In this document: in pieces, positions 5,203 through 26,400 of the stretch | How the letters are laid out: each line of letters starts with the position of its first letter | Numbering within the stretch: position 1 is the stretch's first letter | Source: a virus | DNA: 30,189 bases | Direction: 5' to 3' (one strand) | Virus record (IMG/VR): IMGVR_UViG_3300032050_000572 | Span: 1-30,189 of that record | The notes under the pieces: model-generated | The model's database searches: none | Told to the model about the DNA's origin: nothing | What the model saw: the letters and a program-made list of their open reading frames with translations, nothing else | Made by a program: the position numbers and the translations under genes

Positions 5203-5373
5203 ATGGTTGTTCTCACTGCATCAACCATTATTACCTGTTCACAAGCTTTGAATATCATTTACCGTATTCAAAGAGTTGTTGGATTAACTGAAGTTCAAAA
5301 AACAGAAATAGTCCAAGAAATCCGAAAAGTTATTCCTTTCTGCCCCGTTACAATTAAACAAGATGGAAAATGA
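5203..5373 (+). CDS. Hypothetical protein, 56 aa
   Basis: The product begins MVVLTASTIITCSQALNII and ends FCPVTIKQDGK. The first 25 residues are hydrophobic and might act as a membrane or signal segment, but there is no N-terminal charge. The middle (GLTEVQKTEIVQEIRKVIP) is a helix. I recall similar short proteins (TASTIITC, then GLTxxQKTEI) in other cyanophages, with no known role. It overlaps the following gene by 11 nt. Confidence 0.65.
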   Translation: MVVLTASTIITCSQALNIIYRIQRVVGLTEVQKTEIVQEIRKVIPFCPVTIKQDGK

Positions 5374-5536
5374 ATCTCAAGAAACTAAATGGAATCGTGG
5401 ACTTGATTTGTTTGTCGAATCAGTACATAAACCAGATTCTGAATTGAGACAATGTGCTCATAATCAAGAGTGTTATAATGAACTTATGGCAGTACGGGAT
5501 ACTGTCTTAGAATATCTGAAAACACTAAGAAAATGA
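5363..5536 (+). CDS. Hypothetical protein, 57 aa
   Basis: ATG 5363 is embedded in the last codons of the previous gene, and TGA 5534-5536 overlaps the next ATG. The sequence is soluble and mostly helical, with two cysteines (LRQCAHNQECYNEL) seven residues apart, and a C-terminal helix LEYLKTLRK. Nothing identifies a function. Size, frame and overlaps make it a credible gene. Confidence 0.6.
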   Translation: MENESQETKWNRGLDLFVESVHKPDSELRQCAHNQECYNELMAVRDTVLEYLKTLRK

Positions 5537-6123: not shown

Positions 6124-6606
6124 ATGAATGGTATAACGATACAACCAAATACCAGTATCTTGGTATTAAACTCTTCCTATGAACCATTAAACATAACCAG
6201 TTGGAAAAGAGCAATAGTTCTTCTCTTAAAAGAAAAGGCACAGATATTATCGAATAGAGTCATACGCCTTTTAAGTTATGTGAAAGTACCATTTTCTAAG
6301 ATTGTTATGAACAAACCATCAAGATCAATGATCTACAAGAGAGATAATCATACTTGTCAATATTGCGAATCTACACAACGATTGACAATTGATCATGTTA
6401 TTCCTAAATGTAGAGGTGGAGAAGATACATGGGAAAATCTTGTAGTAGCATGTAGTTCTTGTAATACAAAGAAAGGTAATACTCTATTAGAACAAACCAA
6501 TATGAGGTTAATTCGCAAACCAAGAGCACCTTATAATAAGATGCAATTCCTATTGAATGATTGTAAGATTAAAGAATGGAAAGAATATACTATTGAACAA
6601 TTATGA
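6124..6606 (+). CDS. HNH endonuclease, 160 aa
   Basis: A full HNH nuclease core is visible: zinc ligands C78 and C81 (CQYC), catalytic D90-H91 (IDHVIPK), the RGGEDTWENL segment with N105, and C110/C113 with N114 (CSSCNTKKGNT). The N-terminal part (SILVLNSSYEPLNITSWKRAIVLL) is typical of the stand-alone HNH proteins found in cyanobacteria and many other bacteria. Such enzymes cut double-stranded DNA with a metal ion. In phages they act as homing-type nucleases or in host DNA breakdown, and which applies here cannot be told. It lies at the edge of a non-coding region. The complete motif suggests it is active. Confidence 0.93.
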   Translation: MNGITIQPNTSILVLNSSYEPLNITSWKRAIVLLLKEKAQILSNRVIRLLSYVKVPFSKIVMNKPSRSMIYKRDNHTCQYCESTQRLTIDHVIPKCRGGEDTWENLVVACSSCNTKKGNTLLEQTNMRLIRKPRAPYNKMQFLLNDCKIKEWKEYTIEQL

Positions 6607-6732
6607 CTAAAAATGCTTATTTTATGGTAAAAAACAATTAAATTAATTAATAAATGTATTTTTAAATATGTTTGTGTGATTTATCTCTTATAATGTTATC
6701 GTTATATTGTTAGAGAGTCTCTGAGTTCTTTA

Positions 6733-6774
6733 ATGTCTTATAAACTTATTAATGCCTTATAAATGTCTTATAAA
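6733..6774 (+). repeat. Three direct repeats ATGYCTTATAAA
   Basis: Copies start at 6733 (ATGTCTTATAAA), 6752 (ATGCCTTATAAA) and 6763 (ATGTCTTATAAA). The last two share their boundary base, giving a period of 11, and a further partial ATGCCTC follows at 6774. Each contains TATAAA, which could be read as a -10 element or a protein-binding half-turn repeat. Confidence 0.75.
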
Positions 6775-6875
6775 TGCCTCAGAGTCTTGTGATCTTAGCG
6801 TGCATTGTATCACAACTCCGAAAAAATGTCAAGCGCCCCCGAAACAAAAATACACGGAGGCGGGCACATATAAAA

Positions 6876-7165
6876 CTAGATTCATGATATCATATAACAA
6901 TAACGTTATATCATTATACAACTAGATTCGCATATATCCTTCGAGATTCACAACTAGATTCACAACTAGACTCAACTAGATTCGCATCATACAACTAGAT
7001 TGCCCATCTAGATTCGCATTATACAACTAGATTCATATCATTATATCAACATATCGAGATTCACACATATACAACTAGATTCATATCGAGATTCATATAT
7101 ACACCATGCACTTGACATTCCTTCTAGATTCATGTAACATGTACATAGTTACTTCACCTAGATCC
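6876..7165 (+). repeat. Iteron-like array of CTAGATTC 8-mers
   Basis: Exact CTAGATTC starts at 6876, 6922, 6954, 6976, 7008, 7027, 7075 and 7124. One-base variants are at 6966 (CTAGACTC), 6995 (CTAGATTG), 7158 (CTAGATCC) and as CGAGATTC at 6942, 7055 and 7087. Many copies are preceded by ACAA. Spacing runs mostly from 10 to 28 bp, without a fixed unit length. All copies have the same orientation. This suggests a multi-site binding region (origin, regulator or RNA-level repeat), but no function can be read from the sequence. Confidence 0.85.
7112..7140 (+). promoter_or_regulatory. Sigma70-type promoter TTGACA-N17-TAACAT
   Basis: A perfect -35 (TTGACA, 7112-7117) is 17 bp from TAACAT (7135-7140), which ends 26 nt upstream of ATG 7167. 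One copy of the CTAGATTC repeat lies in the spacer (7124-7131), so a protein bound there would block RNA polymerase. Confidence 0.65.
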
Positions 7166-7166
7166 T

Positions 7167-7328
7167 ATGGTTTACGCACAGAAAAACAAGTATCGTATTA
7201 CTCTAGAACTAGACGTGTTTCAAGACTTTAACCCACGCGATATTGATTGGGAAAAACTGTTTGAATTGGGTGGCGATGAGCGTGTGAAGGCATATATTGA
7301 AGATCTGAGTCTAGACCGTATTTGGTAA
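7167..7328 (+). CDS. Hypothetical protein, 53 aa
   Basis: The frame runs from ATG 7167 to TAA 7326-7328. The product begins MVYAQKNKYRITLELDVFQD, then FNPRDIDWEKLFELGGDE and an acidic helix AYIEDLSLDRIW. I recall short proteins with the pattern YRIxxELDVFxDFNPxxIDWEKLFxL from picocyanobacteria and their phages, without a known function. The position after a clean sigma70 promoter suggests early expression. It is followed by an inverted repeat. Confidence 0.75.
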   Translation: MVYAQKNKYRITLELDVFQDFNPRDIDWEKLFELGGDERVKAYIEDLSLDRIW

Positions 7329-7359
7329 CTCTATCCCAATATTAATATTTCTTCATGCT

Positions 7360-7378
7360 AGGAGAATTATATTCTCCT
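7360..7378 (+). terminator. Perfect inverted repeat AGGAGAAT/ATTCTCCT
   Basis: Eight base pairs (7360-7367 with 7371-7378) enclose a three-base loop TAT, 32 nt after the stop of the previous gene. There is no T-run after it, so it is either a weak terminator or an RNA-stabilising hairpin. Confidence 0.5.
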
Positions 7379-7447
7379 CCCAATATTCTGATTAATCTAC
7401 ATTAATCCTATCGATTCTCGATCATAGCGCACCGATTGCCAATATCA

Positions 7448-7517
7448 AGTATCATTGTGCCACTAGTTCAAGTGTCCACTAAATCGCCCACAGGGGGCAG
7501 CTGGGTGCAATGATACT
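7448..7517 (+). promoter_or_regulatory. Boxed promoter with a long inverted repeat around it
   Basis: AGTGTCCAC starts at 7471 and the -10 GATACT at 7512 (spacing 41), 21 nt before ATG 7539. AGTATCATTG (7448-7457) is the exact reverse complement of CAATGATACT (7508-7517), and the match extends to about 14 pairs if G-T pairs are allowed. The -10 is thus one arm of the repeat. Confidence 0.6.
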
Positions 7518-7538
7518 CAAGTCGTCAGGGATTGCCCC

Positions 7539-7751
7539 ATGATTCTTCTCACTGCCACCAACTACGGTTGTGTATTCACCCTGTCGCAGGAAGATAGTAA
7601 CGAACTGTTCTATGCTCCAATCTATTCTGACGGTAGCGTGAATTTGAATGAATTTGCACCCGTAGATATGGAGAGTGCTGATATGGACGAAATGGAACTA
7701 TTTGATATCATGAATCAATTGCGTGAAATGGAAGGACGTGTGACGGTCTGA
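7539..7751 (+). CDS. Hypothetical acidic protein, 70 aa
   Basis: The product starts MILLTATNYGCVFTLSQED, a beta-type segment, and has a strongly acidic second half (APVDMESADMDEMELFDIMNQ) ending in a strand (GRVTV). It has its own boxed promoter upstream, and another promoter box begins 3 nt after its stop at 7754, so it is a single-gene transcription unit. The low pI and small size fit phage host-takeover proteins in general, but no family is recognised. Confidence 0.75.
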   Translation: MILLTATNYGCVFTLSQEDSNELFYAPIYSDGSVNLNEFAPVDMESADMDEMELFDIMNQLREMEGRVTV

Positions 7752-7753
7752 CA

Positions 7754-7798
7754 AGTGGCACAAGGGGGATTGATTTCTCCCCCCACTGCTGCCATACT
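7754..7798 (+). promoter_or_regulatory. Boxed promoter AGTGGCACA ... CATACT with GC hairpin
   Basis: The box starts at 7754 and the -10 at 7793 (spacing 39). Between them GGGGGA (7764-7769) pairs with TCCCCC (7778-7783). The hairpin may end the previous transcript. The next ATG is 7914, so this promoter would give an unusually long leader of about 110 nt. Confidence 0.65.
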
Positions 7799-7913
7799 AC
7801 TTTCAGAAGCGAACCCTCCTAGCGAAACCACCGATATCGGAAAGGTCCTAGGTAAGATCCTTCACATGCTGTAGGGGAGATCAGCACCCCAACCCAAACT
7901 AATTCTTTTCATC
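7799..7913 (+). promoter_or_regulatory. Structured 5' leader of the ArdA-like gene
   Basis: The leader contains the 10-bp palindrome CCGATATCGG (7831-7840), a CCTAGG palindrome just after it, and GGGG (7874-7877) facing CCCC (7887-7890). No ORF is visible. The palindromes could be operator sites or fold in the RNA. Confidence 0.4.
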
Positions 7914-8351
7914 ATGTCGATCACCCTGACCGCTAACTACAAAGAAACTCTGAATGTTCAAACTGTAGAGTTCATTGAAGAGCGTCTGGAAGATAACTAC
8001 GCTCTGGATGACATGTTGGAGTTCATTGATACCTACAATGAGGACGACTTCTGTAACTATTACGAGGAGTATGTTCGTTGTGGTGAAGCAATCGGATACG
8101 AGGCAGTTGATGCTCTCATTGGCGAAGTTGGTTGCATGAGTGATATTGAATGCTGTGATGAGCGTTATCAAGGTTGCTTCAATGATGAGGCAGAGTTTGC
8201 TGAATCTTTCTATGATGATATGGGTTATGATATCCCTTCTGGAATTGTAGTGGATTGGGAAGCAACTTGGGAGACTTCGTTGCGTTATGATTTCACTGCA
8301 TGTAACGATGGAACTTCTTATCGTTCGATGCATATCTTCCGCGATCACTGA
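7914..8351 (+). CDS. ardA: ArdA-like antirestriction protein, 145 aa
   Basis: About 36 of 145 residues are Asp or Glu. The central and C-terminal parts follow the ArdA pattern: an acidic helix (LDDMLEFIDTYNEDDF), CDERYQGCFNDEAEFAESFYDD (about residues 82-103, split here by family-typical YxGxFxxExEFA), DIPSGIVVDWEATWE, and a closing strand (SMHIFRDH). ArdA is a DNA mimic that inactivates type I restriction-modification complexes in the cytoplasm soon after DNA entry. The length is slightly below the usual 165 aa or so. It has its own promoter, a long structured leader and a strong terminator, forming a separate unit. Alternative: another acidic DNA mimic. The symbol is given by similarity only. 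Confidence 0.75.
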   Translation: MSITLTANYKETLNVQTVEFIEERLEDNYALDDMLEFIDTYNEDDFCNYYEEYVRCGEAIGYEAVDALIGEVGCMSDIECCDERYQGCFNDEAEFAESFYDDMGYDIPSGIVVDWEATWETSLRYDFTACNDGTSYRSMHIFRDH

Positions 8352-9870: not shown

Positions 9871-10767
9871 ATGAAAAACACACACCTCGAACACCCCGAA
9901 GATACCATTCTCACTGGTGATCTTTCGTGTCTTGATTGGTTCATTGCCCCTGGCACTTTGAGCGTTAAGATTGATGGTGCTCCCGCAATTGTGTGGGGAA
10001 TTGATCCTGCAAACGGTGAGTTCTTTGTAGGAACGAAAGCAGTCTTTAACAAGAAAAAGATTCGCATTGCTCACTCTCATGAAGAAATTGATCAACACTA
10101 TCAAGGTGAGGTTGCGTCTATTCTTCATGCTTGCTTTGATTATCTTCCTCGCACCAATACTGTCTACCAAGGTGATTTTATTGGTTTTGGCGGTAGCGAT
10201 GAGTATACTCCCAACACGATTACTTACAAGTTTTCTGAGGTAGTTTCTCAGCAGATTATCATTGCCCCTCACACTTGCTACTTTGCAGAGAATGATCTGC
10301 GCGAAGCAGTTGCAATGCCTGACCGTGCGATCTGGAATGATACTGAAACTGTTAAGTTTGTGAAACCTGAAGCATACATTCTTTACAATCAAGAATCGTT
10401 TGCTGATGTGAAAGAAGTTGTGGACTTTGCCCGCCAAATGTCTACCGCTTGTGAGTTTGTTTCTGATAAGGAAGCAGCAAAGATCAAACAACAAATCAAC
10501 GCCTGCATTCGTGCTGGCGAACAGGTTGCTGCTGAGGACTTTGATTGTGATCCTAACCTGATTCGCTTGTGGGCATTGGTTAAGTCTATCAAAGATGATT
10601 GTGTATACTTGTGTCGCAATTATGGTCCTGCTGCTTATGTGAACGGCAATCGTATTGACGCTGAGGGTTATGTAATGACCAATGAGTTTGGTATGTTCAA
10701 ACTCGTGAATCGTGAGGTGTTCTCCTATCATAATTTCAACAGCGGACGTTTCCAGTGTGCCAACTGA
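9871..10767 (+). CDS. RNA/DNA ligase-like nucleotidyltransferase, 298 aa
   Basis: The covalent nucleotidyltransferase motifs occur in order: motif I KIDGAPA with K33 as the expected adenylated lysine, a following EFFVGTKAVFNKK segment, a motif III-like VYQGDFIGF (98-106), motif IV-like AEGYVMTN around E265-G266, and motif V-like MFKLVNR with K277. The N-terminal HLEHPEDTIL and the KxDGAPA signature match a phage family I recall (possibly DUF6267). Such enzymes activate themselves with ATP or GTP and usually seal RNA or DNA ends. The natural substrate is unknown. There is no OB-fold or DNA-ligase C-terminal domain at this length. In an anti-defence island, repair of cleaved tRNA or other nucleic acid is plausible but is an inference. 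The promoter predicts leaderless translation. Confidence 0.8.
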   Translation: MKNTHLEHPEDTILTGDLSCLDWFIAPGTLSVKIDGAPAIVWGIDPANGEFFVGTKAVFNKKKIRIAHSHEEIDQHYQGEVASILHACFDYLPRTNTVYQGDFIGFGGSDEYTPNTITYKFSEVVSQQIIIAPHTCYFAENDLREAVAMPDRAIWNDTETVKFVKPEAYILYNQESFADVKEVVDFARQMSTACEFVSDKEAAKIKQQINACIRAGEQVAAEDFDCDPNLIRLWALVKSIKDDCVYLCRNYGPAAYVNGNRIDAEGYVMTNEFGMFKLVNREVFSYHNFNSGRFQCAN

Positions 10768-10770
10768 GGC

Positions 10771-10815
10771 ACTGTCCACCAGACCCATATGGGGGCACCG
10801 CTGACCCTTTATACT
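10771..10815 (+). promoter_or_regulatory. Boxed promoter ACTGTCCAC ... TATACT
   Basis: The box starts at 10771, 4 nt after the previous stop, and TATACT at 10810 (spacing 39), 23 nt before ATG 10839. A CCCATATGGG palindrome lies between them (10784-10793). Confidence 0.75.
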
Positions 10816-10838
10816 GATCTCAGTTCAACCGATCTACC

Positions 10839-11030
10839 ATGTCCCGCCTGGAAATGACCTACGCTCAGATCACCGCCGCTCACCGCTACGCTTCCGATGC
10901 CCGTGAGGCGATCTGTGATCTGGCGGATCACTACTCCTGGGAAACGATCGCCCGTGAAATGATCTCCCGCATGACGGGTGATGAGGCGCTGGAGTTTGTG
11001 GAGGATTTCAACTCCCTTTATGCCGACTGA
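10839..11030 (+). CDS. Hypothetical acidic helical protein, 63 aa
   Basis: The product is almost all helix: MSRLEMTYAQITAAHRYASD, AREAICDLADHYSWETIARE and MISRMTGDEALEFVEDFNSL. GC content is clearly above that of the left operon. It is a single-gene unit, with a boxed promoter before it and another beginning 3 nt after its stop. I do not know a function. Small helical proteins of this kind are common as host-protein binders. Confidence 0.7.
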   Translation: MSRLEMTYAQITAAHRYASDAREAICDLADHYSWETIAREMISRMTGDEALEFVEDFNSLYAD

Positions 11031-11033
11031 GGC

Positions 11034-11079
11034 ACTGGCACAAGGGGGACACCGATCCCCCACCCTGACCCTTTATACT
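11034..11079 (+). promoter_or_regulatory. Boxed promoter ACTGGCACA ... TATACT with GC hairpin
   Basis: The box starts at 11034 and TATACT at 11074 (spacing 40), 23 nt before ATG 11103. GGGGGA (11044-11049) pairs with TCCCCC (11056-11061). The stretch CTGACCCTTTATACTGATCT is identical to that at the 10839 promoter. Confidence 0.75.
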
Positions 11080-11102
11080 GATCTCAGTTCAGGCAACCCG
11101 CC

Positions 11103-11348
11103 ATGAAAGTCTCCGCCATCGGCAGCAACAAAACTCAAGTCTCCCTCGCGGATGGCACTGAGGTTCTGTTCTCCTATTCCACCCCTGTCGCCGCTCTGGT
11201 GCCTGGTAAGGGTTGGATGCGGACAGAGCACAAGTGGAGCGCCACCACCACCCGCCACATCAATTCTTGGCTGGCAGAGAACGCCAGCACCTATGCTGAG
11301 GTTCAGGTTGTGCCACAATGGGATCTGGATCAATTGGTGGCATTCTAA
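11103..11348 (+). CDS. Hypothetical protein, 81 aa, beta-rich
   Basis: The N-terminus is a small beta unit (KVSAIGSNKTQVSLADGTEV, then LFSYSTPVAALV), followed by a basic Trp-rich segment (MRTEHKWSATTTRHINSWL). I recall phage and bacterial small proteins with the same order, SNKTxVxLADGTxVLFSYxTPVAA then TEKKWSxTTxxHINxWL, which may be the DUF8033 family; the function is not known. Its leader is C/A-rich and lacks a Shine-Dalgarno sequence. Confidence 0.75.
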   Translation: MKVSAIGSNKTQVSLADGTEVLFSYSTPVAALVPGKGWMRTEHKWSATTTRHINSWLAENASTYAEVQVVPQWDLDQLVAF

Positions 11349-11412
11349 CCTGAACAATGGGAATGGCAGCGCCCAAAAAAGACTCCGCCAAACATTAACT
11401 TTTTTTGATCAA

Positions 11413-11580
11413 ATGTCCCGCGAACTGGCTCTTTCCCTTCTGCGTCAAGGTAACAACGGATCCGACATTCTCCAGATTCTGGAAACTATCACCAGCGACA
11501 TTGAACAGGAGAACATCAACGATTGTGCCGCACATTATGCTTCAATCAGTGCCCCTACTTTGACCGCGATTCAATTCTGA
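11413..11580 (+). CDS. Hypothetical protein, 55 aa
   Basis: ATG 11413 is preferred over the much longer upstream frame, which only shadows the preceding gene. The product is MSRELALSLLRQGNNGSDIL, QILETITSDIEQENINDCAA and a tail ending TLTAIQF. I recall similar MSRELALSLLRQGNxGxEIL proteins in marine Synechococcus and its phages, without function. No clear -10 lies at the usual distance. A T-run (11400-11406) precedes the start, so it may be transcribed from the 11103 promoter. Confidence 0.65.
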   Translation: MSRELALSLLRQGNNGSDILQILETITSDIEQENINDCAAHYASISAPTLTAIQF

Positions 11581-11604
11581 TCTGACATTAATTTTATAAG
11601 TACA

Positions 11605-11760
11605 ATGCGAGCAATTCTCCCTTCAATGTTTGCAATCTTCTGCATTGCAATTGCCTCCACTTTTGTACAGTCTGCCACTGCCACAATTAATTCATATCAA
11701 GAGAAGCAGGCAGAGACAATTTGCCAAGTGTCCCCCGCCGCCTGTGGATCGCGCTCCTGA
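11605..11760 (+). CDS. Small exported or membrane protein, 51 aa
   Basis: The first 26 residues are hydrophobic with one N-terminal Arg (MRAILPSMFAIFCIAIASTF, then VQSATA), which fits a signal peptide with a possible cut after SATA, or a membrane anchor. The mature part is only about 25 residues with two cysteines (ICQVSPAAC) that could form a disulphide. Its stop TGA is part of the conserved CTGACCCT motif of the next promoter, and that promoter's box (11727) lies inside this coding sequence. Confidence 0.6.
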   Translation: MRAILPSMFAIFCIAIASTFVQSATATINSYQEKQAETICQVSPAACGSRS

Positions 11761-11771
11761 CCCTGTAGAAT
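11727..11771 (+). promoter_or_regulatory. Boxed promoter AGTGTCCCC ... TAGAAT
   Basis: The box starts at 11727 and TAGAAT at 11766 (spacing 39), 25 nt before ATG 11797. The box is in the coding sequence of the previous gene, and that gene's stop codon is within CTGACCCTGTAGAAT. Confidence 0.65.
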
Positions 11772-11796
11772 TACAGAGTCAACCGCAAGGCAACCG

Positions 11797-11979
11797 ATGA
11801 CCTTCCCCGACCTGATCGCTGAAATCACCAACCCTGAGAATGGCACCATCTATTGGATCGAAGCGGCACACGCTGCCAAACAGCACGGTCTGTGGGATGA
11901 CTTCCGCACCGACTATGGCACGACCTCTGACTTCGGCGGGGTTGACGCTGGTGAGTTCCTGGTGTGGTTGGGGTATTGA
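11797..11979 (+). CDS. Hypothetical acidic protein, 60 aa
   Basis: The product reads MTFPDLIAEITNPENGTIYW, then IEAAHAAKQHGLWDDFRTDY and GTTSDFGGVDAGEFLVWLGY. It is acidic with several aromatic residues and probably folds as helices with one loop. It has a private promoter and another promoter starts soon after its stop. No family recognised. GC content is high compared with the structural genes of this genome. Confidence 0.65.
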   Translation: MTFPDLIAEITNPENGTIYWIEAAHAAKQHGLWDDFRTDYGTTSDFGGVDAGEFLVWLGY

Positions 11980-12005
11980 CCCCTGCCCCCCTGACCCTGT
12001 AGAAT
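11961..12005 (+). promoter_or_regulatory. Probable promoter CTGACCCTGTAGAAT with a weak box
   Basis: TAGAAT (12000-12005) and the preceding CTGACCCTG are identical to the 11797 promoter, and the distance to ATG 12030 is 24 nt. At the expected box position (11961) the sequence is GGTGTGG, only a partial match. Confidence 0.5.
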
Positions 12006-12029
12006 TCTCAAGCAACCGACAGACGACCA

Positions 12030-12200
12030 ATGCGCTTCCCTCTCGCCATGTGCTCTGACCTCCAGACCCGCCAGATCAAATGGATCTCCCGCGCCGATCA
12101 ACTGAAGAACGGTTCCCGCCCTTCCTCCTACGTTCACTGGGGAGTGCCCGCTACCGTCATCGCCGCCCAGTACTCTGAGGCACACGCAGGGCGGGGGTGA
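12030..12200 (+). CDS. Hypothetical basic protein, 56 aa
   Basis: The frame runs from ATG 12030 to TGA 12198-12200, with an alternative in-frame ATG at 12048. The product is MRFPLAMCSDLQTRQIKWIS, RADQLKNGSRPSSYVHWGVP and a tail ATVIAAQYSEAHAGRG. It is basic, which suggests nucleic-acid or acidic-partner binding, but nothing specific is visible. Its last codons overlap the promoter of the next gene. Confidence 0.55.
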   Translation: MRFPLAMCSDLQTRQIKWISRADQLKNGSRPSSYVHWGVPATVIAAQYSEAHAGRG

Positions 12201-12219
12201 CCCCGTTTCGTGCTACAAT
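12177..12219 (+). promoter_or_regulatory. Boxed promoter GAGGCACAC ... TACAAT
   Basis: GGCACA (12179) lies 35 bp upstream of TACAAT (12214-12219), against 36 at the 9871 promoter. The box is one or two bases off consensus. It ends 22 nt before ATG 12242, and the upstream stop TGA lies in the promoter. Confidence 0.5.
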
Positions 12220-12241
12220 TCACAAGTCGCCAACCGATCCC

Positions 12242-12580
12242 ATGATCAACGCTCAAACCGCCAACCGCCTTGACCTCCTGCTGGCAGACTGCCGTGGTGA
12301 AATTTCCTACCGCCGCCTGCCCACTCGCCACGCTCGCAAGGGTGAGACCTGGCAGCGTCAATCGCAGCATGGTAGAGGGGCAGCGATCGGTAACGTTCGC
12401 GGTGGTGATTTCGGATCCACTGGCGACACCGTTGCGGGTGCTGGTAAGGGTGTGACCCTGACCCGCGTTTGTGGAATCGGTAAGGAGATGGTTCGCGATC
12501 TTGATTCTGTGGTTGCCCGTGCCAAAGCACAGTATGCCGCAGATCGCCGCTCCGCTGCCTTAGAGCGGCGTGGGGTCTGA
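12242..12580 (+). CDS. Hypothetical arginine-rich protein, 112 aa
   Basis: ATG 12242 is chosen over the in-frame ATG 12197 because the boxed promoter (-10 at 12214) falls between them. The N-terminus is helical (MINAQTANRLDLLLADCRGE), followed by an Arg/Gly-rich linker (residues about 30-75, RRLPTRHARKGETW and GRGAAIGNVRGGD) and a basic C-terminal helix (VARAKAQYAADRRSAALERR). Arg/Gly-rich linkers often bind RNA or DNA. No catalytic motif is seen. It ends the high-GC island. Confidence 0.6.
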   Translation: MINAQTANRLDLLLADCRGEISYRRLPTRHARKGETWQRQSQHGRGAAIGNVRGGDFGSTGDTVAGAGKGVTLTRVCGIGKEMVRDLDSVVARAKAQYAADRRSAALERRGV

Positions 12581-15069: not shown

Positions 15070-15471
15070 ATGCCTGTCGAAAGAATTTCAAAGGGATTTA
15101 AAGATATAAGTCTTTCGTTTCAGGTGAGTCCCCTGAACTATGATCTTCTCACAATTAAAAATGAAACCGCAATCGCTCGATCCGTTAGAAATTTAGTTTT
15201 ATATGGAACGGGCGAAAAATTTTTTAATGAAACATTTGGATCAAAAGTATCGCGTTTACTCTTTGAAAACATTGATGAGATATCTGCTTCAATATTAAAA
15301 AGCGAAATTGAACTTACAATCAAAAATAATGAACCTAGAGTTAGTTTAATAGGTATTGATATTACACCAAATTATGATAACAATGAATTTAATGTGGTCA
15401 TAAAATATTATATTATTGGTATAGAGGCATTACCTCAGCAACTATCATTTGCATTACAGCAGTCACGATAA
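15070..15471 (+). CDS. 25: Baseplate wedge protein gp25, 133 aa
   Basis: The length matches T4 gp25 (132 aa). The sequence has the gp25/GPW pattern: an N-terminal FKDISLSFQ stretch, a conserved middle with SVRNLVLYGTGEKFFNETFGSK (about 37-58, the region where gp25 proteins have a GExxFxPxFGxxl-like signature), and the NEPRVSLIGIDI segment (about 90-101), with EPR typical of the family. gp25 sits at the inner rim of the baseplate, contacts gp6 and starts sheath assembly. It precedes gp6 directly (TAAATG). Confidence 0.92.
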   Translation: MPVERISKGFKDISLSFQVSPLNYDLLTIKNETAIARSVRNLVLYGTGEKFFNETFGSKVSRLLFENIDEISASILKSEIELTIKNNEPRVSLIGIDITPNYDNNEFNVVIKYYIIGIEALPQQLSFALQQSR

Positions 15472-17424
15472 ATGGCATTAGTCAATTTTACAAATTTAGA
15501 TTTCAACGATATTAAGAGTTCAATAAAGGATTATCTTAGATTGAACTCGAATTTTACTGATTATGATTTCGAAGGATCTAATCTGTCTATTATCTTAGAT
15601 ATATTGGCATATAATACGTACATTTCTTCGTATAATGCCAATATGATAAGTAATGAAATTTTTATCGATAGTGCAACTTTGCGAGAGAATGTAGTATCTC
15701 TTGCGAAAAATATTGGATATATACCAAAATCTAGAATTTCCCCAAGATCTAAAATAAGTTTTTTTGTAGATACCACAGAATTATCATTTAATCCTGTGAC
15801 TTTAACTTTAAAAAGAGGAATTGTTTGCTCTACACCAACTTCCTTTGGCAGAGAAAGTTACACTTTTAGTATATTAAATGATATCACTGTTCCAGTTGTA
15901 AATAAAATAGCATTTTTTTCAGATGTTGAAATTTATGAAGGAACCTACCTAACCTCTAATTTTACAGTAGATTCTTTAAATCCAAATCAAAAATTTATTT
16001 TAAATAATGCAAATATTGACTCTTCTCTAATAAGTGTTCAGGTAAGAGACAATCAGAATTCATCGTCATCAACAAAATATAATTTGTCGGATAGTTTATT
16101 TGATATTGGTCCAGAATCAAAGGTTTTCTTTATTCAAGAAATAGAAGATCAAAGATATGAATTGGTATTTGGAGATGGTATTTTTGGCAAAAAGCTATCT
16201 GCAAATAATTATATTGAAGTTTCATATATTGTTACCAATGGACCTTCGGCAAATGGTCTAAGTAACTTCACTTTTGCAGGAAGAATCATTGATAATGAAG
16301 GAAATACTATAACTAGCGATATATCAGATCTAACAACAGATCAGTCAGCAGCGGGAGGAAAGGATATTGAATCTATTAATTCGATTAAAAAATATGCTCC
16401 TAGAATATATGCAGCACAAAATAGGGCTGTAACTGCTGCAGATTATGAAGCGATTGTACCTCAAATTTATCCTGAAGCAGAATCAGTTTCTGCTTTTGGG
16501 GGTGAAAATTTAGATCCTCCAGAATATGGAAAAGTTTTTATAACTATAAAACCAACTAACGGAGCATTTGTACCAAACTCAATCAAAGATAATATCATAT
16601 CCTCCTTGAGAAAATATAGTGTAGCAGGAATAGTTCCAGAAATTTTAGACCTAAAATATCTTTATGTTGAATTTGACAGTAGAATTTACTATAATACTAA
16701 TTTCTCTTCAAGTCCAAGTAATATTTCTACGGGCGTACTTAATAACATTAATGAATATGCAAATTCTTCGGAATTGAATAAATATGGTGCAAAATTTAAG
16801 TATAGCAAATTCCTAAAAATAATTGATAATTCAGATCAATCTATTACCTCAAATATTACAAGAATTCAAATAAGACGAGATTTAAGTCCAACATTAAATT
16901 CTTTGGCAGAATATGAAATATGTTTTGGAAATCAATTTTATGTTGAGGGTGGAAATGGATACAATATTAAATCTTCTGGATTTGAAATTGCAGGAATAAC
17001 AGGGACTGTATATCTGGCAGATATTCCAGATTCGGGGACTGATGGTAGATATGGTTCTTTGTTTTTCTTTAGATTGGATTCAGATACTCAATCTTCAACG
17101 ATTAAAAAATCTGTAGGTAAAATAGATTATTTAAAAGGAGAAATTTTTCTAAATCCAGTTAATATTGTTGGCACTTCAAAGAACTTTGAAGGAAGACCAA
17201 TTATTGAAATATCCGCAATACCATTATCAAATGATGTGATAGGATTAAAAGATTTATATTTACAGTTGGATGTCAATAATAGTTTCATTACTACCTTAAA
17301 GGATGAAATTGCATCTGGATCAGATATTTCTGATCTCAACCTTCCATACAAAAATACATCCTATACTGGCACAACATACATAGTTACATCAAGCTACGAC
17401 ACAGGGAACTTAGTAAGATTATAA
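15472..17424 (+). CDS. 6: Baseplate wedge protein gp6 (baseplate J-like), 650 aa
   Basis: The length is close to T4 gp6 (660 aa). The N-terminus (LVNFTNLDFNDIKSSIKDYL, then NFTDYDFEGSNLSIILDILA and YNANMISNEIFIDSATLREN) is the typical gp6 start. The middle contains the baseplate-J-type segment DQSAAGGKDIESINSIKKYA with AQNRAVTAADYEAI (about 290-330). gp6 forms the continuous ring that links wedges in the dome-shaped baseplate. It lies between gp25 and the giant gene, as in T4-like late clusters. Confidence 0.92.
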   Translation: MALVNFTNLDFNDIKSSIKDYLRLNSNFTDYDFEGSNLSIILDILAYNTYISSYNANMISNEIFIDSATLRENVVSLAKNIGYIPKSRISPRSKISFFVDTTELSFNPVTLTLKRGIVCSTPTSFGRESYTFSILNDITVPVVNKIAFFSDVEIYEGTYLTSNFTVDSLNPNQKFILNNANIDSSLISVQVRDNQNSSSSTKYNLSDSLFDIGPESKVFFIQEIEDQRYELVFGDGIFGKKLSANNYIEVSYIVTNGPSANGLSNFTFAGRIIDNEGNTITSDISDLTTDQSAAGGKDIESINSIKKYAPRIYAAQNRAVTAADYEAIVPQIYPEAESVSAFGGENLDPPEYGKVFITIKPTNGAFVPNSIKDNIISSLRKYSVAGIVPEILDLKYLYVEFDSRIYYNTNFSSSPSNISTGVLNNINEYANSSELNKYGAKFKYSKFLKIIDNSDQSITSNITRIQIRRDLSPTLNSLAEYEICFGNQFYVEGGNGYNIKSSGFEIAGITGTVYLADIPDSGTDGRYGSLFFFRLDSDTQSSTIKKSVGKIDYLKGEIFLNPVNIVGTSKNFEGRPIIEISAIPLSNDVIGLKDLYLQLDVNNSFITTLKDEIASGSDISDLNLPYKNTSYTGTTYIVTSSYDTGNLVRL

Positions 17425-17427
17425 GAA

Positions 17428-20400
17428 ATGGCAGATACAAGAATCAAAATCAACTCTATTGTTGAAAATCAACTTCCATTATTTGTACGCGATGAGTATC
17501 CTCTTGTCGCGGAATTTCTATCTCAGTATTATAAATCACTCGATGCTAAGGGAGGAGTATCTGATATACTTCAGAACATAGATCAATATGTAAAATTGGA
17601 AAATTTAACCAATCTTACAGATTCTACTGTTCTAATTAATGACATCGATTCTTTGGGAGATGTTATTGAGGTAGAATCCACATATGGATTTCCTGATAGT
17701 TATGGATTGATTCAAATTGATTCTGAAATAATTACCTATACTGGAATAACAACAAATCAATTTGTTGGGTGCGCTAGAGGATTTAGTGGTATTACAACAT
17801 ATCAAGGAAATACTAATTTAGATCAACTTATATTCTCTCAATCAGGAATAGCAACACATGCTAGTGGATCTACAGTAAGTAATTTAAGTATAAGATTTCT
17901 TAAAGACTTTTTCAACAAAATAAAAAAACAAGTTGTTCCTGGATTTGAAGGTAGAGAATTTTATGAGAATTTAAACGAAGAACTTTTCATTACAAATTCA
18001 AAAGATTTTTATACTTCAAAAGGAACTGATCAATCGTACAAAATTTTATTCAAAGCCCTATATGGAGTAGACGTTGAAGTAATAAAACCAAAAGATTATT
18101 TAATTGAGCCTTCAAATGCTCAGTATAGAGTAGTTAGAAATTTAGTTGTAGAGTCTCTAGAAGGCGAAGATCTAAGCGAACTATTGAATAGAACGATATA
18201 TCAGGAACAAGGTGATCTTTACAATGGAGCAAATGGTGTTGTCAATAATATAGAAAAGATTTTAAGAGATGGAAAAGAATATTATGTTCTTAGTCTTGAT
18301 TATGATTACCAAAAAGATATTGGACTCAATGGATCTATATTTGGAGAATTTTCGATACACCCAAGAACAAAAATACTCAATAATGTTTCAATAGGAGCCA
18401 CATTTATTGATGTAGATTCTACAGTATCATTTCCCACTGAAGCAATTTTATATACCAAATTGGACAATGGAACTACAGTTTCTATTGGATACTCTGGTAA
18501 AAGTTTAACTCAGCTGTATAATTGCTATGGAATAGATCAAAATATTCCTGCAGGATCCGACTTAAATGTGGACGCATATGCTTATGGATATGGAAAAAAT
18601 AACCAAATAATAAAGTTTAGAGTAACAGGGGTCCTTTCTGATTTAGATATCATTGATAACACTTATTATTTTGCAAAAAATGATACCGTAAGAATTAAAA
18701 CTTTAGGATATGACTCTAAAAAGTTTAGAGATAATAATTGGATCTTTAATATATGCCCAAGTTATACAATAAAATCTTTAGATCTTATCGATTCTACAGA
18801 TTATACTTATAGATTGGCAACAATAGATCAAAATATTTTCAACATTGGGGACATTCTAGAATTATTGTTGACTGATGGTTCTATCATAAAAACAACAATT
18901 TATTCGATAGAAAATAGAAATTCTTGCATAATTAAAGGGCAAGGGTTAATACCACCAACTAATTTAATAGTTAATGTAAAAAAATCTCTTTCAAGAGTAA
19001 ATTCAACAAATCAACCAGAACTAAGTCTCTATACTACAAATATACAAAATGTATATACGGATTTGGATTCTACATTTGTAACTTCCCCATCATTACCAAC
19101 TTATCATGAAGAACCACTCAACATTAATGATCTATCAGTTACTTTTTCTGGTTCTTTTTCTGGAGAAGAATTAAGAATTGTTAGACATGGATTTTATACC
19201 GGAGAAGCAATCTGGTATAATGAGTCTGACGAGAATAATAGATTGGATATTCTTAATGGCATATATTATGTCAAAAAAATTGATGAGGATACAATAAAGT
19301 TATCCAAAAGTAGATCTAATATAGACAATAATAAATTTGTAAGTGTTAATGGAACTGTCGTAAACAATAAGTTTGAATATTACAAATTCAATTCACAGAA
19401 AGTTGAACCTCAAAAAATTATAAGAAAAATATCAGATCCCGAAGACGATGGCAATATTTACGAAACTTTGCCTGGAGCAATTGGAATTTTAGTTAATGGT
19501 GTTGAAGTATTAAATTACAAATCTTCTGATAGTATTTTTTATGGAGAACTAGAAGAAATTATCGTCTCTGGTGGAGGATACGATTATGATGTAGTAAATC
19601 CCCCAATTTTACAAATAACAGATAAAATTGGTGTTGGCGCAACTGGATTTTGTTCAGTTGTCGGAACCTTAGAAAGAATTGATATTATAGATCCTGGGTT
19701 TGATTATATATCAGAACCAATTATAACTATTAGCGGTTTAAATGGGCAGGAAGCAACTGCCAAAGCAACTTTAACTTCATTTGAGCATTATGTTGATTTT
19801 AATTCATCATCAAATGCCAACATGGTAGACTTGTCAAATAATACTATAGCATTTTCAACTTATCATAAATTTAGAGATTCTGAAAGGGTTATTTACAGAA
19901 CAGATAAGCAGCAATCTGTTGGCGGATTGACTACAGATTCTCAATATTATGTTTATGTAGAGGACGCATATACAGTCAAATTACATAAAACTCAAAATGA
20001 TGCCATTATCGGAATTAATACTGTCAATTTGACATCATATGGTATTGGTAATCATAGATTCAGATCATATTCACCAAAAAATAGAATTGGATTTATTAAT
20101 ATTTTAAACGCTGGATATAATTTTACCAATAGAAAAATATCAGTTACTAGATCTGGAATCAACACATATTCAAATGAAATTTCTGCAAAAAATCATGGGT
20201 ATAATGAGGGAGATATCATAACTTATGAGTCAATAAACCCTATTGGTGGATTATCAACTTCTAAAAAATACTTTGTATCTAAAATTGACGATGATAAATT
20301 TAAGTTATCTGAAGTGGGAATTGGAAGTACATTATCTAGATATTTCTATGAAACAAATCAATTTGTCAATTTGACATCAAATAATGATGATAATCATTAC

Positions 20401-23400
20401 TTTAACTACCCACCTATTGAAATTTTAATCAATGGTGTGATAGGAGTTTCTACAAAATCTGGACAAGATTTTAATGCTAAAATTAGACCTATTATTTTAG
20501 GGGAAATTAAATCAGTTTTCTTAGATTCTGGTGGAGTTGGATATGGTTGTTCCGATATTATTGGATATAATAGACAACCCCAAATTACTCTTGTTAATGG
20601 CGATGGTGCGGAAATAACACCAATTGTTTCAAATGGAAAAATTGTTGATGTCTTAGTCAATAATTCTGGCGCAAATTATAATTCGACTCCAGAAATAATT
20701 TATTATGGAGACGGTTATTCTTCTTTAATGACTCCAATAATTAATGATGGAAAATTAACAGAAGTGAAAGTAATTAATGGTGGAGTTGGATTTAATACTT
20801 CAAATACAACAGCGATTGTATTGTCTAGAGGGCAAGAAGCAAAATTTGAGGCAAAGATTAAAGAATGGACAATTAATTTATTTGAAAAATTATACCAAAA
20901 TAATAAAATCTCAAATGATGACGGGATAGTAGATTCTGGTCTTAATAGTGACTATGGATTACAATATACTCACATATATTCACCAAGAAGCTTAAGAAAA
21001 ACATTATTGTCTTCAAGATTTGTTGATGGCAATTTAAATTATACACCAGATTTAATTCTGATTAATGATAAGGAAGTTAAATCTTCATCTCACTCACCAA
21101 TTATTGGGTGGGCATATGACGGAAATCCAATTTATGGTCCTTATGGATTTACTAAAGTTGGATCTAGATCTGGAACAGTTAAGCAAATGATATCTGGATA
21201 TGAAATAATACAGAATTTGCCCACTACTAGACCAAGTTTAGATTTATATCCAAAAGGATTCTTTGTTCAGGATTATGAATTTAAAGCAAAAGGAGATTTG
21301 GACGAATATAATGGAAGATGGTGTATAACTCCCGAATATCCCAATGGTGTTTATGCATATTTCTCTACGATCAATTCTGATACTGTAGAATCTTCTGGAG
21401 TATTTAAAAACTACAAAAAACCCGAATTCCCATATCTAATAGGAAATAAATTTAGATCCAAACCAATAGAATATAATTTTACAAGATATGCTAATCAAGA
21501 TAGTATAGATTTAAGTGGAACATATTGGTTTAGAAATACAACACCATATGGACTTACAAATGAAAACACTTTTTATGATTATTTAATAAAACCTTCAAAT
21601 ATACAAAATCAAACTTCCAAAATTAAGTTTGCAACTAAAGGTGCGGTAGAATCTGTAGGAATTGTTAGTGGAGGAATCAATTATAACGTTGGAGATTTGG
21701 TAGTATTTGATAACACAGAAACTGGTGGAAGAGGAGCTTCAGCCAGAGTTTCTTTGGTTAAAGGAAATGAAATCCAAGAAATATCATGCTCTACTAATAA
21801 AATTGAAAATATAGAGTTTTCTCCATATCTAACGTTAGGTAGTTTCATAGGATTCTCAAGTTTGCCCCATGGATTTAAAAATTCTGATTATGTTTATATA
21901 ACAGGAATCAATACAACTACTACAAGTTTAAAAAATTTATATGAAGTTGGTGTTAGATCGGAAACATTTAAATTAATATCTGGAATTGGAAGTGCAGCTG
22001 CAACTGGTATTGTTACATATTTTAATATTTCAGGATCTCTAATTTATCCAAATATTAGAGAAAATGATGTATTAGGAATAGGTACCGAAAAAGTAAAAGT
22101 ATTGTCCGTCGATATAAAATCTTCAAGAATTAAAGTATTAAGGCAGTATGATAATACTGTCGGATCTGCACATACATCTTTAACGCCCCTATACGAAAAT
22201 TCAAGAAAGTTTACCATTAATGTTGGTTATAATACTTCTAACCAGTATAGAGTAAACAGGGAAATTTATTTTAATCCTTCAGAATCGCTTGGAATTGGTA
22301 TAACTGGAACATATACTGCATACATTTCAAATCCAGGTAGTGGAAGTTCTACTGTAACTATTCCAGTAAGGTCAATTTACTATGAGAATCATGGATTGGA
22401 AACTGGAGATAGACTAGTCTATTTTTCTAACGGAGGAACACCAGTATCCGTTTCAACAAATGGATCTTCTAGTTTCCAACTATTAGATAATCAAATAGTT
22501 TATTCTGTAAGGATTAATAATGATTTAATAGGAATATCAACTCTTAAAGTTGGTGTTGGGTCAACAGGAACTTATGTTGGTATTGATAGCAGCAAACCTA
22601 CAAGTATTTTATACTTTACTGGCATAGGTACTGGAACAATACATAGCTTTAGAACAAATTATGACAACGTTGTTATTGGTTCTGGAATTAAAAATATTGT
22701 CACCATTTCTACTGCGTCAACGCACGGTTTAAACATAAAAGACTCAGTTTATATCAATTCTTCTCCAGGAATATCAACAACTATTGTAGTCAAGTATAAT
22801 GATTACAATAGAAGACTGATAGTAAATCCAAGATCTTTTGTTTCTTCGGATGTTGATATTGTCAATGATATTATTACAATTAATAATCATGGATATAATA
22901 ATGGACAAAAGATAATTCATACATCTACTTCTCCATGTACAGGATTAACTAATGAGCAAATTTATTATGCAGTAGTTTTAGATGAAAACAAAATTAAACT
23001 ATCCGAAAATTATTATGAATCAGTATCTTCAAAACCTTCAATAGTAAGTATTGGAAGCTCCTCTTTTGGAACATTATCGCCAATAAACCCAGAATTGGCA
23101 ATTTTAAAAGGATCTTCTGTTATTTTTGATTTGTCAGATTCTTCTCTTTCTTATAGCAAAAATTCTACTTTATATCCTGCGTTTGAACTGAATTTCTATC
23201 TAGATAAAAATTTCAAAAATAAATTTGAAACTTCTCAGTTATCCAACGAATTTGAAATTTATAGGGAAGGAGTTGTTGGTATTGATCCAACAGCTAACGT
23301 AAAAATTAATGCAACACAAAATTTCCCGCAGACAATATATTACAAATTGGATGTTGTAAATATTGACAATATCCCAGTAGAAAAATCACAGATAATAATT

Positions 23401-26400
23401 GATGCAGAATATATTAAAGAGGGAAATACAATATATCGATATGAAAGTGAATATACTGGAACATATAAAATTTCGGGAATTGGATCTACTACATTTAGTT
23501 TTAGTATGCCAACTGTTCCTGAAAAAAATATTTACAGAAAAAATGAAGGATTATTTGAATATTATACTGACTCAAAAACTTCATATGGTGAAATTTATGC
23601 ACTAGATGTTGATACTACTGGATCTCAGTACGAAAAACTTCCAGGAATTTCTACCATTGTAAGTGAAAAGGGAACTGGAGCTGTCCTCTTGCCATACAGT
23701 TCAAGTATTGGGCAAGTTAAAACGTCAATAATAAATGATATTGGTTATGATTATTATGCTGATACTACAATTAGACCGTTAGCAAAACTACCAGAAATAT
23801 TAAAAATTTCAACTTTAACTTCTTTTGAAAAGATTGGTATAACTTCTGCTGGTATAAATTATGCAGTTTCACCAGACCTTTTGGTAATAGACGGATTAAC
23901 TAGAAAAATTGTTGATGATGTTGATTTGTTCTATAAAGTAGGTGATACAGAAGTTACTATTCTCAAAAATACAACAGGAATTAGTAACGTTCCTCCAATT
24001 ATTATTCCTGTAAATAATTGCAATGGAGTTGGAATATCGTCAATTGGATACAATCCATTGACAAATTATGTCACTGTTGGACTTGCAGTTAGTTACAGCA
24101 ATGCTTCAGACTTCCCATTCTCTGTTGGAGATAAAGTTCTAATTGAGAACATTAGTGTTGGTCTAGGATCTACAGGAAGAGGTTATAATTCCTCACAATA
24201 CTCTTATGGATTATTCCCTGTTGTAGCAGTATCTCCAAATATAGGAGGCATTAATGCTACTGTCACATATGATCTTACCGAATATATTTCATCAGGGCAA
24301 GTTCCTGGAAGATATGATCCTATAAATTCAAAGGGTAGGATAATCCCAGAAAAACATTTTCCAAAGTTTGACGCAATTCTATCAAAAAATAATTTTATTA
24401 AGGGAGAGACTGTAGTATCAGATGATTCAATCGGAATAGTTGAAAATTGGGATCAAAAAAATGAAATTCTAAAAGTTTCCACAAACAAAGAATTTTATAC
24501 AAATACTGTATTGAGAGGTTTATCTTCAAAATCTCAAGGATTAATATCAAATAAAGAGTCTTTTGAGGCAACTTATGAAATTGATTCTTCTTCTATTGTA
24601 ACTAAAGGGTGGGAGAGACAAACTGGATTCTTAAACAGCAGTCTACAAAAAATTCATGATAATGACTATTATCAATATTTTTCATACTCATTGAAATCAG
24701 AAATACCATATGAAACCTGGAATACACCAGTAAGTAATTTAAATCACGTTGTTGGATACAAGAAATTTAGCGATCTTGTTATAGAAACAAGAGATTTGGA
24801 TTATGTTGGCATACAAACCTCTCAAGATAATGGAGATTTTTATGGAATCTGCGATTTTTCTTCTACAATTAATCTAAATCACATTTACGATTATGATTTA
24901 GTTTTTGAAGAAACGATCAATAATGATAATAATATAATTTCAACTGATATAGTCTTTACATCGAAAGAGATACAAGATTATCTCCAATCAATAGGAAATA
25001 GAGTATTAGAGATAGATGATTTTAGTGACACATTCAAGAGTGTTCCTAGATCAACTCCATTTTCTATTGTTGATACATTTAGAATGAATGACTCCAGATC
25101 TAGAAAATATATTACATATGTAAGAGATAAGAGATTTAGTTCGGATAGACAAATTCTATTAGTTTCTTTACTATATGATAATGATTTTGGGTATTTAAAT
25201 CAATACGGAAGAGTCGAAAGTTATCTAGAAGATCTGGGATCATTTGACTTCACTGTAAATGGCGATGAGGGCAATTTACTATTTTATCCTTCTAAGTATA
25301 CAGTTAATGACTATAATATTAGTCTTCTGTCATTTAATTTAAAAGACGACGTTACAGCAACTTCTACCTCTTATTTTGGAGATATTATAAGATTATCGAC
25401 CAGTAATGTTAATGCTTCTTCGTCCACTCCCTCAACAATCGTATCGATAGCATCTACATATCGTTCAACAAAAATATTAGTACAAATAGAATCTAATAAT
25501 GACATATATGAATACGATGAACTAACTGCTATTCACGATGGAACAAATGTAGATCTCTTAGAATATGGTCAAATTACAAATCACTCAAGAAATGCATATG
25601 CAAGTAGTGGTCTGGGTACATATAATGCATATTTGTCTGGTCCTGGACTAATAGTAGAATTTATACCAAATCCAGGAGTAGCTGCAACCATAAACACTAT
25701 GGCAATATCTTTTGCGGCAAATACAAGTGGTTCTGTTGGTACAGGAACTGCAATATTGAGCACATCTTCATTAAGTTCTAATTATGTCTCTATAGCTTCT
25801 ACATCTGCCCCAACTCAAAACTTAGTTTCAAGTTATTCTAGTGATTATTCTGGTGCATATTATATTGCTTCTGTCGAAGATACAACCAATAGTAGATATC
25901 AGATTTCAGAATTGGTTGTTGTTGATGAGACAGTTTTCAATACAACCTCAATTACAGAATTTGGAATTGTAGAAACTCATAGTGGACTTGGAACTTTTGG
26001 ATCTGACATTTCAGGAAATCAAACTAATTTATACTTTACGCCAAATCCAAATATTAATGCACAGGTTAGAATATTCCAAGTTGCAATGAAACCATTGGAT
26101 GAGGGAATAGCAACAAATAATATTGATTTGAATAATGGATTTATAAAGAGTAATTATGGATCATATGAAGGTACTGAAAGAGATGTTAGAAGATCTTTTG
26201 AATTAACTAGCAGCGGTAGAGAAATCTTTAAGCGTTATTTTGACGGCACCGATTCAAGCGTTGTTAATATTACAAATAATACTATAAGAATTCCAGAACA
26301 TTATTTTGTTACTGGCGAAGAACTCCAATATTCTTCTCCTGGAATTGGAAATACTCAATCTATTGGAATTACAACTGCAATATCAATTCCCGGAATAGGA

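Follow-up and report, generated by a model that had tools for sequence, protein, structure and literature searches.

Here we describe an array of short direct repeats in a non-coding gap of a 30,189-base stretch of viral DNA (hereafter the window, meaning the whole stretch that was analysed), the closest matches of which are Synechococcus myoviruses, and show that the same motif recurs at the same locus in around 14 further distinct T4-like cyanophages, some of them closely related to each other, with spacers that are unrelated. Retention of the motif while the spacers diverge fully, its fixed slot and its inversion in one phage together point to a binding site in DNA, and sequence comparison indicates selection on the repeat motif itself, which most likely acts as DNA. 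The array lies beside a conserved core with a promoter, and in array-less relatives a host-type DnaA box is concentrated next to the same core. Our preferred reading, which we hold tentatively, is that this is an origin-like locus at which the place of DnaA boxes is taken by iteron-like sites specific to certain lineages.

A preliminary description of the window had reported about 14 copies of an 8-mer (eight exact and about six near), all in one direction within 290 bp of a non-coding gap, and this proved correct. Exact copies of CTAGATTC start at 6876, 6922, 6954, 6976, 7008, 7027, 7075 and 7124, and copies with one mismatch at 6942, 6966, 6995, 7055, 7087 and 7158, all on the + strand; a scan of both strands of the record found no further exact copy. 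The repeats are not tandem, and their spacings (46, 20, 12, 12, 10, 19, 13, 19, 28, 20, 12, 37 and 34 bp; range 10-46 bp) are irregular and are not multiples of 3, which marks the region, lying between an HNH endonuclease gene (6124-6606) and a gene for a 53-aa protein, as non-coding. The array is far above chance expectation, as its slot holds a 7-mer nine times in 330 bp, compared with at most four occurrences of the top 7-mer both in 100 dinucleotide shuffles and across 177 other 330-bp stretches of the window. Further clusters of CTAGATTC found among viral contigs were rejected, being mostly coding repeats with spacings divisible by 3. The repeat consensus exceeds 8 bp, reading ACAAC[T/G]AGATTC[A/G]CAT, with a linked variant TTCGAGATTC. 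The description of CTAG as a rare tetranucleotide was apt only in part, as there are 59 in the window, of which 13 cluster at 6876-7209. Multiple direct repeats in a single orientation, a feature of iteron-type origins, are thus present in 14 copies; even, helically phased spacing, a further such feature, was not found, and the phasing differs from phage to phage (a pooled test of phasing lacked a proper control and is not relied upon here). An Rfam search of 6200-8000 gave no matches.

Table 1. Positions of the features of the array locus in the window.
Feature	Position	Strand	Remarks
AT-rich stretch, possible DNA unwinding element	6629..6689		Matches the AT maximum of relatives; visible in the sequence
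Three AATGYCTTATAAA repeats left of the core	6732..6774	+	Direct-repeat family D6
Conserved core GTGATCTTAGCGTGCATTGTATCA	6789..6812	+	Found once per genome in Kyanoviridae
Leftward sigma70-type promoter, within/beside the core	6804..6832	-	-35 TTGACA 6832-6827, N17, -10 TACAAT 6809-6804
Repeat array	6876..7165	+	14 ACAAC[T/G]AGATTC-type copies: 8 exact CTAGATTC, 6 with one mismatch
Rightward promoter of the 53-aa gene	7112..7140	+	TTGACA 7112-7117, N17, TAACAT 7135-7140; CTAGATTC at 7124-7131 in the spacer
53-aa gene, phrog_12516	7167..7328	+	Follows the core in 77/106 loci

A BLAST search with the gap recovered a short core element in non-coding gaps of S-SRM01, S-PRM1, S-SM2, S-SCSM2R, S-8S53, S-CAM9 and a single-cell virus, and in S-SCSM1 the core was identified by eye. 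The core pattern GTGATCTWRGCGNGCANNNTATCA is single-copy in seven of eight such phage records, the eighth, S-SRM01, having a diverged copy, and more than 119 viral-contig stretches contain it. Relatives also conserve an element of the TTTAAATGT type at positions -20 to -12 relative to the core. A minus-strand promoter of the form TTGAC[A/T]-N17/18-TAnnnT is present at the core in 98 of 101 loci compared with 6 of 1861 control windows, and because the pattern used to fish for the core includes the -10 but not TTGACA, conservation of the latter is independent evidence for this promoter. AT content averaged over about 95 relatives reaches its maximum, 78%, at -150 to -125 from the core, which is the downstream side of the leftward promoter, so that the combination of promoter and AT-rich DNA seen in origins of the T4 oriF type is present. 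Folding of the leftward leader RNA was not significantly better than that of shuffles. A check of cumulative GC skew, which had been proposed at the outset, left the site unmarked: no shift of the kind associated with a DnaA-dependent oriC was seen at the core in five complete genomes.

The sequence TTTTCCACA is the cyanobacterial DnaA box (PMC4674748, PMC3480399). In array-less relatives it is enriched about 290-fold beside the core, at 3.92 per kb within 300 bp to the left against 0.0136 per kb in the remainder of those loci, and at least one box is present in 58 of 95 loci, as would be looked for in a DnaA-dependent oriC. S-SCSM1 has its sole exact DnaA box in 229 kb at approximately 100 bp from the core, two of the three boxes in the 190 kb of S-SM2 fall within 60 bp of it, and in L022, L029 and L110 the boxes occupy the slot of the array. 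Core-adjacent boxes can also be inspected in L122, L043 and S-SM2 (58064-58085). The positions of the boxes vary, and their presence changes around 18 times on a gp6 tree; that they come and go and are nevertheless concentrated at the core suggests that they are selected for and not simply inherited. This concentration may matter more than the array.

In the window, the interval from -300 to +450 of the core contains no TTTTCCACA, even when one mismatch is allowed. Across loci, the DnaA box is present in none of 15 with the array, some of which are cut short on the left and so limit this count, compared with 53 of 84 others, leaving 31 of the 84 array-less loci with no box. When phylogeny was controlled the mutual exclusion of array and box was not significant (three independent pairs; sign test, median p 0.5). 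Box-less loci (L037, L081, L084, L109 and similar) often have GTAGTNTCTTCGTAGT- or GTATCTGTGGAGT-like words within 100 bp to the left of the core, which are possibly another type of site.

The preliminary description had proposed that the array be sought in related phages, and it is present in the ~14 other distinct phages rather than absent from close relatives. It is unchanged in three contigs (L035, L096, L099), and the phages with the same motif and unrelated spacers are L085, S-SRM01, L238, L247/L369, L371, L372, L373, L415, L425, L423, L424, L418, L419 and L239. In nearly all of them the array is flanked on the left by the core, often in diverged form, and on the right by the 53-aa gene; the exceptions are L247, where the core was found by eye, L418 and L419, which have no recognisable core, and L239, where no 53-aa gene was recognised. 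Each array has some 6-17 copies. Among 168 copies picked across phages by C[T/G]AGA[T/C], a search pattern that makes C[T/G]AGA invariant, T follows in 158; CAA precedes the CTAG form and TT or AT the CGAG form. In S-SRM01, which additionally carries CTCGTCGAGAT forms, the motif is flipped, with three CKAGATTC on the minus strand in 231 bp compared with 15 in 241 kb on both strands, and this orientation argues for action as DNA.

The distance from core to gene is 329-543 bp in five array bearers compared with at most 198 bp in secure array-less homologues (first set of loci, weak match L102 omitted; the median of all is 176 bp), and by these distances the array is an insertion between the core and the 53-aa gene. 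Array phages are scattered on the gp6 tree (640 columns), on which well-supported branches force at least three changes and L085 is sister to L107, an array-less phage with a DnaA box. The locus can do without the array, which is missing from most relatives. A different array, of CCTGCG/CTGCGC words, stands to the right of the same core in S-PRM1, S-8S53 and S-CAM9 (L002 5100-5420, L012 3090-3430, L014 3070-3400) and was set aside as a different motif.

A copy of CTAGATTC had also been said to lie in the spacer of a TTGACA-N17-TAACAT promoter, and as sequence this is real. The preliminary description's suggestion of a regulator site is partly borne out overall, by this copy and by the recurrence of the array in other phages. 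Taken further, it would make the array purely transcriptional, with a phage regulator acting through it to silence the 53-aa gene or set its timing, perhaps together with that of the leftward promoter, and with no role in replication. This is a genuine possibility. Sites overlapping a controlled promoter are the mark of an operator array, and here the copy in the spacer is equally far from TTGACA in at least six further phages with the array, the arrangement TTGACA-N6-CTAGATTC recurring in L238, L247, L369, L371, L372 and L373; the last repeat (7158-7165) ends one base before the ATG of the 53-aa gene, the array fills exactly the interval between the two divergent promoters, and by eye S-SRM01 also has a copy in a promoter-like spacer. 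However, at least 14 sites over 290-450 bp are far beyond the need of one promoter, L085 has no copy in the equivalent promoter, and array-less relatives retain the same gene without any such sites. We therefore place an origin-type role above a purely operator one. The 53-aa protein, the gene for which is also found in phages without the array, has no match in Pfam or to a fold in the PDB, and its structure model is modest (pLDDT 87, pTM 0.58; the homologue alignment used for the prediction omitted two homologues from named phage records).

The remaining explanations are much less probable. The high copy number of one site would fit a site that decoys or hijacks a DNA-binding protein of the host, another of the roles first suggested, and the DnaA boxes beside the core of relatives show host-type sites in use at this locus. 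However, when 84,980 bacterial and archaeal species were scanned, with one genome per species, only scattered pairs came up and no comparable non-coding array was seen in the marine picocyanobacteria that are the likely hosts, and we know of no cyanobacterial regulator with this site; a decoy is accordingly improbable. Slightly less probable again is an RNA element, in which copies of CUAGAUUC, set among G-poor spacers without structure, would be displayed on a + strand transcript and serve, for instance, as a sponge for a protein or RNase. The window's spacers are indeed only 7.6% G on the + strand, and folding of the array RNA is not significantly better than that of shuffles (z -0.5), but in S-SRM01 the motif occupies the same slot on the opposite strand with spacers that are not G-poor, and the array lies mostly upstream of the promoter of the 53-aa gene. 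We give equally little weight to neutral expansion of a functionless repeat by slippage or as a small mobile repeat: copy number and spacers do vary among phages, and most relatives have no array, but the repeats are not tandem, and the motif is kept in the same slot, between fully diverged spacers, in phages whose gp6 is only ~50-60% identical to that of the window. No evidence was found for a recombination hot spot, which had likewise been suggested.

Returning to an origin-like role, the locus has been compared with known systems. In phage T4, oriE contains evenly spaced 12-nt direct-repeat iterons of undefined role, and oriF and oriG each combine a promoter with an AT-rich unwinding element and are primed through an R-loop (PMC3016281). 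The likeness to oriE lies in direct repeats of ~12 bp in a T4-like phage, at syntenic places of relatives and at or near the proposed origin; it is one of kind rather than spacing, since the T4 repeats are even whereas spacing in the window is irregular (10-46 bp), and neither a conserved promoter core nor DnaA boxes such as those of the relatives were found described for oriE. As for oriF, which in T4 is at uvsY, next to gene 25, and oriG, the transcript of the core promoter would similarly enter an AT-rich non-coding stretch a few kb upstream of gp25. The likeness here is one of layout, since the core promoter is of the sigma70 type, its -35 being TTGACA, and not MotA-dependent, and the cyanophage locus adds the repeat array or DnaA boxes. 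The locus can be filed as neither, since the array lacks the even spacing of oriE and a priming R-loop as at oriF/oriG would be hypothetical here. Array-less relatives resemble cyanobacterial oriC in clustering TTTTCCACA beside a core with an AT-rich stretch (PMC4674748, PMC3480399). They differ from it in that no dnaA or dnaN gene is near the locus, and the window itself lacks a DnaA box and has repeats unrelated to it in sequence. In iteron plasmids, autoregulated rep genes have a repeat copy inside the promoter, and the window similarly has repeats in one orientation with one copy inside a promoter; in contrast, its spacing is irregular and no recognisable Rep gene is next to the array.

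The sequences show directly that the array exists, that it recurs in a fixed slot although the spacers have diverged, that the core holds a promoter and that DnaA boxes are enriched beside the core in relatives, and from these we infer a candidate origin, protein binding of the repeats and their functional substitution for DnaA boxes. According to this model, the ~12 bp repeats (ACAAC[T/G]AGATTC) would be bound by one sequence-specific protein. This locus of T4-like cyanophages, which combines an AT-rich stretch with a core that holds a leftward promoter and, in the majority of relatives, has DnaA boxes of the host type, would serve early initiation of replication, through transcript priming as in T4 oriF, through an initiator bound to the repeats, or both. 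In the lineage of the window and several others, CTAGATTC sites would replace the DnaA boxes, and another protein, probably one that the phage encodes, would nucleate the complex. With one copy placed between the -35 and -10 of the 53-aa gene and another next to the start codon, this protein could adjust expression of that gene as well; initiators often autoregulate, so that origin and operator roles are compatible. Comparison of candidates across phages yielded no firm initiator or repeat-binding protein, and in the phyletic profile an AbrB/MazE-like protein and a small zinc-ribbon protein emerged as no more than weak candidates.

The replication origin named in the preliminary description thus gains from the recurrence of the array beside the promoter core and from the DnaA boxes of array-less relatives, while GC skew lends it nothing. 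In relatives the AT-rich stretch, the DnaA boxes, the promoter firing toward the AT-rich stretch and the position upstream of gp25 are origin-like; flat GC skew, irregular spacing, inconsistent phasing and an exclusion of array and box that is non-significant on the tree count against an origin. A more specific proposal, which we regard as rather unlikely, is that there is one conserved origin with its promoter, for which some lineages recruit host DnaA and others have swapped to ~12-bp iterons and a phage initiator; if true, a single virus family would display a switch of initiator. The T4-like cyanophages (Kyanoviridae) are viruses that abound in aquatic habitats, and a text search of 5.39 million open papers, a corpus outside which most subscription papers lie, found none on a cyanomyovirus replication origin or on DnaA boxes in these phages. 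The single-copy, nearly invariant core and the DnaA-box enrichment beside it offer a precise target of a few hundred bp. Together they would link a T4-like phage to the initiator of its host, and the CTAGATTC array would show that such an origin-like site can also be marked in a second way, specific to the phage.

Some further features of these genomes should be noted. In S-SRM01 (L001 ~5256-5392) a short unannotated open reading frame, acidic and with DLDE repeats, contains two of the repeat copies and lies downstream of a promoter-like site, TTGCAT-N17-TATAAT. Words of the GTG(C/G)CAC type precede the next small genes of the window (7440-7520 and 7740-7790) and also occur in relatives, for example L238; they are perhaps an upstream element of early promoters. 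G+C content is 52-56% at 10500-12500 compared with 28-46% in the rest of the window, and this jump suggests that the genes there were recently acquired. The baseplate genes gp25 and gp6 lie at 15070-17424 and are directly followed by a single open reading frame of 3987 aa (17428-29391).
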